From an uncultured Saprospiraceae bacterium (GTDB lineage: Bacteria > Bacteroidota > Bacteroidia > Chitinophagales > Saprospiraceae), in contig CALHAM010000068.1 in assembly GCA_937934275.1 (NCBI GenBank), positions 1 through 53,829 of the forward strand: a DNA stretch of 53,829 nucleotides. The letters are read 5' to 3'. Both the position numbers and the translations under genes were made by a program. The notes beneath the pieces are model-generated. The model ran no database searches. It had not been told where the DNA came from and was given only the letters and a program-made list of their open reading frames with translations. Each line of letters begins with the position of its first letter. Within the stretch, counting starts at the first letter, position 1. Shown piece by piece: positions 51,003-52,111 of the stretch.

Positions 51003-51314
51003 ATGTTCGCGATTGTTTCCATCGCCGGTCAACAGTTCAAAGTTGAGGAAGGTCAAAAGATCTTCGTCCACCGGCTGGCAGCTCAGGAAGGAGAGGCTGT
51101 CTCCTTCGACACCGTGCACCTCATCGACCGAGGCGCGGAAGTGTCCATCGGTACCCCATACGTAACGGGCGCAGAGGTGAAAGCCACCGTATTGGGGCAC
51201 TTGAAAGGCGATAAAGTAATTGTATTTCACAAAAAACGCCGCAAAGGCTATCGCAAGAAAAAAGGCCATCGGCAGTTGTTCACCCAATTGAAAATTGAAG
51301 CCATTGCCGGCTAA
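51003..51314 (+). CDS. rplU: 50S ribosomal protein L21
   Basis: The 103-residue product has the L21 fold throughout: [39 protein letters not shown], and the basic [20 protein letters not shown] near the end. It ends shortly after the core at IEAIAG, with no C-terminal extension. It is followed after 38 bases by rpmA in the standard rplU-rpmA order. Confidence 0.97.
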
Positions 51315-51352: not shown

Positions 51353-52111
51353 ATGGCACATAAAAAAGGCGTAGGTTCTACCGATAACGGCCGCGATAGT
51401 AAAAGCAAGCGCTTAGGTGTCAAGCTCTTTGGCGGCCAGAAGGCTCGCGCAGGCAACATCATTGTGCGTCAGCGCGGCACGAAGTTTCACCCCGGCGAAA
51501 ACGTTTATATGGGCCGCGACCACACCCTCCACGCCGCTGTGGATGGCTTTGTATCCTTCAAGCGCACCTACAAAGACCGCCGTATTGTAAGTGTAATTCC
51601 TTTCTCTCAAATAGAGGTGGCCGAAGTGGTGGCACCGGAAGCGGTTGTTAGAACGGCTTCCAGCCTGCGCCCATCCCAACCTGAGGTGTCGGCACCAGGG
51701 GCAGAGGTAGCAACGCCTGAGGCCCCAGCAGAAATGGCTACTCCTGAGGTGCAACCCCAAGCACCTGCCTTAGAAACGGAAGCGGCGGTGGAAAATCTCG
51801 TCGAAGAGACAGCCACTGCGCCTAAAAAGACCTCCAAAAAAGCGCCCAAACTCAATGACTTGAAGATTATAGAGGGCATTGGCCCCAAAATCGAACAACT
51901 GCTGCACGAGGCGGGTATCGATACTTGGGAGGCCCTCGCCAATACGCCGGTGGAGCGCTTGCGCGAAATTTTGGAAGCTGCTGGCTCGCGCTATCAGATG
52001 CACGACCCAAGCACTTGGCCCGCCCAGGCGCGCTTTGCAGCCAACGGCGATTGGGAAGATCTGAAGGATTATCAAGACATGCTTATCGGAGGGCGCAAGC
52101 CCGTAGAATAA
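51353..52111 (+). CDS. rpmA: 50S ribosomal protein L27 with C-terminal helix-hairpin-helix extension
   Basis: L27 contacts the peptidyl-transferase centre. Residues 1-86 are normal L27 ([45 protein letters not shown]). The protein is 252 residues, against about 85 usual. A linker at about 93-155 is rich in Ala, Pro and Glu with repeated TPE/APE units. A lysine patch (KKTSKKAPK) and a folded C-terminal domain follow, at about 167-252. That domain opens [20 protein letters not shown] (a typical HhH GIGPK hairpin) and continues [18 protein letters not shown] and [20 protein letters not shown]. No stop, frameshift or internal start separates the parts. HhH domains bind nucleic acid or partners; its function here is unknown. 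Confidence 0.95.

Follow-up and report, generated by a model that had tools for sequence, protein, structure and literature searches.

The window, by which we mean the whole 53,829 nucleotide stretch of DNA from an uncultured Saprospiraceae bacterium that was analyzed here, carries neighbouring genes for ribosomal proteins bL21 and bL27 on its forward strand. The upstream gene, rplU (51003..51314), encodes a 103 aa bL21 that matches Pfam Ribosomal_L21p (129.1 bits, residues 1–101) and TIGR00061 (110.5 bits) and has no helix-hairpin-helix (HhH) tail. The rpmA gene (51353..52111) lies 38 bases beyond the end of rplU and is a single unbroken ATG-to-TAA frame of 252 aa plus stop, in which bL27 is joined through a linker to a C-terminal HhH module. 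Its first 86 residues (51353..51610) are the bL27 core; residues 2–81 match Pfam Ribosomal_L27 (PF01016) with 125.4 bits against a cut-off of 20.5, and the protein scores 117.2 bits with TIGR00062, whose cut-off is 90.35. There follow a linker rich in Ala, Pro, Glu and Val (residues 87–157, 51611..51823) that pLDDT and pN/pS values mark as flexible (below), a lysine patch that reads KKTSKKAPK in the translation (residues 158–166, 51824..51850), and the module itself (residues 167–252, 51851..52108), which is delineated by HHH_5, AlphaFold and conserved columns. Residues 169–206 score 28.7 bits with Pfam HHH_5 (PF14520), above its cut-off of 27, and the isolated module reaches 31.5 bits; the fusion protein has both this score above the Pfam cut-off and the GhG hairpin, which is GIGPK in the translation (residues 175–179, 51875-51889). 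Behind the HhH are two C-terminal helices with the conserved motif W..QA...AA.GKW..LK..Q (in its shorter form W..QA...AA.G.W..L). Most of the 23 sequences in the module alignment have a Lys-rich stretch ahead of the module, and the closest module among the matches listed from named records, that of MAG SKYG121, is 89% identical to the one in the window.

The source genome (3.43 Mb in 157 contigs, 99.93% complete) contains a single L27 match, and 51353-52111 is confirmed as a real L27-linker-HhH fusion. The architecture is found, in the same frame, in all 32 complete L27 genes of the genus (37 genomes including the source genome, of which 33 have an L27 match and four do not; one of the 33 genes runs off its contig), and the fusion frame is also present in G308, a 7.5 Mb genome in a single contig, so it is not peculiar to one MAG. 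The original prediction of an uninterrupted frame from L27 through linker and lysine patch into an HhH domain is thus borne out by the ORF, by Pfam and by the genus, as is its description of the neighbouring L21 as tail-free; it had named a frameshift or stop in independent reads between the L27 core and the HhH part as the observation that would speak against a fusion, and the frame is unbroken in each of these same-genus genes and in G308. Elsewhere in the order (23 genomes, with 21 complete L27 genes, one gene that is cut and one genome with no match), four of the complete genes have an HhH tail, seven have tails of 45–166 aa with no HhH pattern, and ten are plain. The L27 tails of L009, L032, L041 and L058, from other families of the order, are Lys-rich, 86–166 aa long and have no HhH pattern.

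When 70 Saprospiraceae genomes from 69 genera were drawn evenly, every one had an L27, and this L27 carries the module in 46 of them (at least 40 of these by identity of contig and equality of frame length among the matches listed, with six long frames confirmed by sequence); the L27 frames of the remaining 24 are shorter than 150 aa. In one case, L182:2332-3834, a 501 aa L27 has three tandem modules, and Pfam recognizes L27 and three HHH_5 stretches in it; its frame length and module positions make it the same gene as L223 from G260. Pooled pN/pS ratios (Nei-Gojobori proportions over 13 pairs, some of which share a genome and some of which are saturated at synonymous sites) are 0.068 in the L27 core and 0.064 in the module (1117 codons each), and 0.342 in the linker (923 codons). 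These ratios show the module to be under purifying selection equal to that on the core. Many of the genomes compared are MAGs, and the seven HhH-less tails in the order show that L27 can be extended in other ways, both of which speak for an assembly error, a frameshift, or a neutral tail that is removed from the protein once it is made; nevertheless, the constancy of the frame within the genus and in G308 and a module pN/pS as low as that of the core make such an origin very improbable, and we reject it on the grounds of selection and family-wide conservation.

The AlphaFold model of the module, made with 44 aligned modules, is a confident helical one, with a pLDDT of 93.8, a pTM of 0.85 and five helices. 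This predicted domain of about 85 aa is larger than a bare HhH and has the size of the compact GIGPK-containing domain of about 85 residues that had been proposed. In the model of the full fusion protein residues 92–125 and 127–161 have pLDDT values below 50, blocks within 171–240 have values of 93–97, and the overall pTM is 0.38, all of which points to a flexible tether that leaves the folded domain free to take different positions relative to L27; the tether of the original prediction therefore stands. Linker length in the L27 fusions varies from 43 to 121 aa (37 rows, one gene being represented twice). At E 0.01 HHH_5 is matched by 42 of the 44 modules and DUF4332 (PF14229) by 26. The module model had no Foldseek match in the PDB at E 0.001 or better; its top neighbours there are RadA/Rad51-type domains (E 0.28) and polymerase-type HhH domains, with NusA AR2 further down (E 0.91).

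L27 is only one of the proteins that carry this module. At E 1e-10 the module is present in 61 of the 70 Saprospiraceae genomes (and absent at that threshold in nine), and in 58 of the 61 it is on a ribosomal protein whose identity varies. Among the 15 module-bearing genomes without an L27 carrier, it is on S1 in 11 (G257, G264, G276, G291, G292, G295, G298, G301, G310, G314 and G321) and on S16 in one (G306), all twelve confirmed by Pfam, that of G257 from a frame that is cut by the contig start and includes one S1 domain; the other three (G236, G275 and G288) have only non-ribosomal carriers. Thus, within the Saprospiraceae the genomes show that a ribosomal carrier is, as predicted from its gene, nearly always present, and that which protein it is varies.

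The phylum at large was sampled by an even draw of 198 genomes, 52 of which have a module match of any kind at E 0.001 (four weak matches were inspected; L089 and L091 are DNA polymerase IV-like and L088 is ferredoxin-protein-like by eye). Strong modules, defined by a domain E of 1e-7 or better and with the copy on contig C5 of the source genome left out, were found in 53 ORFs from 26 genomes: 18 are ribosomal proteins (seven bL21, four bL27, three uS2, two bL17 and two bS1), six are NrfD-family proteins, and 29 are others, most of which have an N-terminal TM segment and a coiled coil. Carriers were labelled by sequence motif, with at least one representative of each kind confirmed by Pfam (L17, S2, S1, NrfD and L21, the last in one of its seven phylum-sample carriers). 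The ribosomal association is looser here, with a ribosomal carrier in 15 of the 26 strong-module genomes and none in the other 11, seven of which (G071, G083, G115, G146, G204, G228 and G232) have a non-ribosomal protein as their sole match. Among named records, the best 80 of 583 matches were classified by pattern as 16 bL27, nine bS1, two NrfD-family, 44 TM-type and nine other, and Pfam identified three of the last nine as S1 (L140), L13 (L174) and S16 (L184). L174 is the single uL13 case; the record from which it comes is titled as a Gammaproteobacteria MAG and may be mis-binned. L123 is a truncated L27-like tail. In all, the module was seen as the C-terminal part of bS1, uS2, bS16, uL13, bL17, bL21, NrfD-family membrane proteins and membrane-anchored coiled coils. 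HhH tails thus do occur on L21 of other Bacteroidota, which supports what the original prediction had said of some Flavobacteriia, and a tabulation of the phylum sample does place the module on both L21 and L27; it does not stay with these two, being also on uS2, bL17, bS1, NrfD and others.

The non-ribosomal carriers are diverse. C-terminal modules are present on eight NrfD-family membrane proteins (L085, L094, L096, L112, L113, L114, L158 and L167; Pfam for L094 and L113), which are probably ActC of alternative complex III. Eight AMPK1_CBM-like glycogen-binding proteins also carry it (L076 by Pfam, L260 below the cut-off, and L224, L244, L245, L246, L250 and L263 by eye), as does a GT4/glycogen-synthase-like glycosyltransferase (L277), which with them makes a set of storage-polymer proteins. 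Pfam and NCBIfam found no such domain in carriers that look HU-like by eye (L178, L203, L219 and L237), SnoaL-like (L221 and L243) or phasin-like (L273), and these were left out of any such classes. The source genome itself has a second carrier, with a TM segment, a coiled coil and the module, at G000:C5:12429-13052 (L034:4430-5053) and again at the end of G000:C71 (L035); the two contig ends share about 140 identical bases, so this is probably one gene that was split by the assembly. An OmpA-family gene lies directly upstream of the coiled-coil carrier in five loci, L034 (3522-4397; by Pfam) and L137, L138, L164 and L176 (by similar N-termini), and the two genes are a conserved pair. A third, diverged module in the source genome (G000:C24:34113-34301, L111) is in a 319 aa frame that also encodes a hydrophobic stretch at the N-terminus and a long coiled coil.

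A tree of 162 modules, a weak one built from 82 columns, has two deep groups separated by a 99% branch, with bL27, bL21 and NrfD-family carriers in both. The bL27 label changes 15 times on this tree, compared with a mean of 38.3 when labels are shuffled, and the starred branches alone force two changes. Topology tests used 102 of the rows, after removal of near-copies and of roughly half of those of TM type. In these tests a single clade of all bL27 modules (25 rows) was rejected with an AU p of 0.0153, and a single clade of the clade-A bL27 modules (23 rows, a set picked after inspection of the tree) with an AU p of 0.0208. These comparisons show acquisition of the module more than once by L27, and its acquisition by several other ribosomal proteins too. 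The L27 modules of the window's kind adjoin modules of membrane-anchored coiled coils and not those of L21 (SH-aLRT 84, weak), and the adjoining coiled-coil subgroup differs from the relatives of the source genome's own C5 protein. The class of TM coiled-coil and other proteins is a remainder whose counts are approximate, since a fragment of L27 (L123) at the least and two proteins resembling S1 (L152 and L168) fell into it. It had been suggested that the module moved from one operon neighbour to the other, L21 and L27 being adjacent. With at least seven ribosomal carriers as well as non-ribosomal ones, and with membrane coiled coils as tree neighbours (weakly, as above), this idea is too narrow, and we reject a transfer specific to these two neighbours.

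What might the module do? Since L27 is located near the tRNA path and is among the carriers in well over half of the Saprospiraceae genomes sampled, the domain might reach from L27 to tRNA, to the peptidyl-transferase centre or to a hibernation factor, as the original prediction had it in part. Such roles peculiar to L27 fit poorly and seem improbable, in that relatives have the module on S1, S2, S16, L13, L17 or L21, which are located far apart and on both subunits, and in that linkers of such different lengths do not suit a fixed geometry; such linkers suit a mobile tether better than a connection of set length to the peptidyl-transferase centre. Our best explanation, which we put forward tentatively and at somewhat less than even chances, is that this tail of L27 serves as a portable docking domain of HhH fold in the cytosol, devoted to protein-protein interaction and carried on the tether; binding of another factor, which was among the roles first proposed, falls under this reading. 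The fusion protein would sit uncleaved in ribosomes, and the long disordered tether at the L27 C-terminus would let each 50S subunit display one mobile binding site. The module would bind protein (a second copy of itself, some other tagged assembly, or a single shared partner) and not nucleic acid, and ribosomes might in this way be positioned or clustered while the peptidyl-transferase centre is unchanged. The purifying selection on the module, its confident fold at the end of a disordered linker, the change of carrier among genomes and the rejection of a single bL27 clade all count in favour of this explanation.

The charge of the modules is one reason for favouring protein contacts. Mean net charges are -5.3 on bL27, -4.9 on bS1, -3.3 on bL21 and -9.0 on bL17 (n=2), and -2.4 in the remainder class, so that the modules are acidic, most strongly on ribosomal carriers, which argues against non-specific nucleic-acid binding. 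This acidity, together with carriers that have no known nucleic-acid role (NrfD-family proteins, membrane coiled coils and the glycogen-binding CBM protein, to which the NCBIfam relatives NuoE and phasin may be added), makes protein the favoured ligand. It is rather unlikely that the module is a clamp whose hairpin binds rRNA, mRNA, tRNA or chromosomal DNA non-specifically and so anchors ribosomes to the nucleoid or helps subunit assembly. HhH domains that hold on to the backbone of nucleic acids typically have a GhGPK hairpin, and the retention of this hairpin in 146 of the 162 modules keeps that reading alive and counts against docking; the RadA model PRK04301 is matched by 20 of the 44 aligned modules, in line with the distant RadA/Rad51 and polymerase-type neighbours found by Foldseek, and the lysine patch ahead of the window's module counts in the same direction. 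The docking explanation also has to contend with the module-bearing genomes that have no ribosomal carrier, 11 of 26 in the phylum sample and 3 of 61 in the Saprospiraceae, and with the nine of 70 Saprospiraceae genomes in which no module reaches E 1e-10.

Another alternative is a membrane tether, with module-bearing membrane coiled coils gathering tagged ribosomes and respiratory complexes through HhH-HhH contacts. Of the 15 phylum-sample genomes in which a ribosomal protein is tagged, 11 also hold a non-ribosomal, non-NrfD carrier, mostly of the TM plus coiled coil type by eye, although this co-occurrence is confounded by kinship; the source genome has such coiled-coil proteins, and in the tree they are the kind beside which the L27 modules of the window fall, if in another subgroup than the C5 relatives. 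On the other hand, a ribosomal protein is the only module carrier seen in G061 (L17), G103 (L21), G161 (L21), G276 (S1) and G306 (S16), and no module-bearing membrane partner was seen in these five genomes; G286 probably also has the module on a ribosomal protein only. An obligatory module-bearing membrane partner is thus rejected, and a membrane tether of this sort is unlikely overall. For the docking explanation, the same five genomes speak for either self-contact between ribosomes or a partner that lacks the module. In its widest form, which we regard as a speculative extension with perhaps one chance in several of being true, Saprospiraceae and, more sparsely, other Bacteroidota would use a single interchangeable HhH module for docking throughout the cell, as a common code for sorting or clustering large assemblies. 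The objects so marked would be ribosomes (through any of seven ribosomal proteins), NrfD-family proteins, glycogen-binding proteins and membrane-anchored coiled coils.

As a rule the core proteins of the ribosome are compact, and the ribosomes of the Saprospiraceae seem, from their genes, to wear a conserved add-on domain. That the ribosome bears the domain nearly throughout the family while the bearer is free to change implies a selected function at the ribosome surface, although we found no name for it. It also suggests that reference ribosomes lack functional parts that are present in little-studied bacteria, and it turns the role of the obscure tails of L21, S2, NuoE and protein-O into a testable question.

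Several known protein families have a related part. HHH_5 and DUF4332 cover only residues 6–43 and 6–50, respectively, of the 89 in the window's module, and the conserved C-terminal helix pair lies outside both. The haloarchaeal L32e with an HhH extension (PRK12766) is another ribosomal protein whose model is matched, by 12 of the 44 modules, but it is archaeal; that extension is N-terminal and is disordered in crystals. A close parallel on a bacterial ribosomal protein is NCBIfam PRK12278 (NF008915/NF008916), an L21 with a long C-terminal part that includes a homologous module, matched by 37 and 33 of the 44 modules; the window's module matches NF008915 with E 3.7e-4 (threshold E 0.01). Its host is L21 and not L27, the full-length protein of the window scores only 24.9 bits (cut-off 281) and 21.0 bits (cut-off 193), and the models presumably stem from Pseudomonadota. 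Homologous C-terminal parts are similarly present in PRK12311 (long S2), PRK12373 (NuoE) and NF045508 (phasin PhaH), which 29, 43 and 26 of the 44 modules match. These hosts again differ from that in the window, whose protein is far below their whole-protein cut-offs because its tail alone matches.

Our literature search, which covered open-access journal papers, found no paper on an L27-HhH fusion among those listed, and a search of PDB chains with the tail at E up to 10 gave no ribosomal chain, so that we have seen no solved ribosome with the module. The Flavobacterium johnsoniae ribosome (PDB 7jil; organism from PMC9976891), a Bacteroidota ribosome, has an L27 chain of 86 aa and an L21 chain of 147 aa. 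A domain similar in sequence to the window's tail (phmmer 6.2e-5) does form the C-terminus of the RC-LH1 protein-O of Dinoroseobacter shibae (PDB 8yy9). According to its description, that domain sits on a long flexible loop, is also present on NuoE and other proteins, and has an obscure physiological function (PMC12079452). Unlike our L27, protein-O is membrane-anchored beside the photosynthetic reaction centre, and only its residues 8–59 were traced, so its C-terminal domain is unresolved in that structure (PMC12079452). Thus, as the NCBIfam tails of L21, S2, NuoE and phasin were already known, what is new here is the L27 host and the family-wide pattern of a known promiscuous domain.
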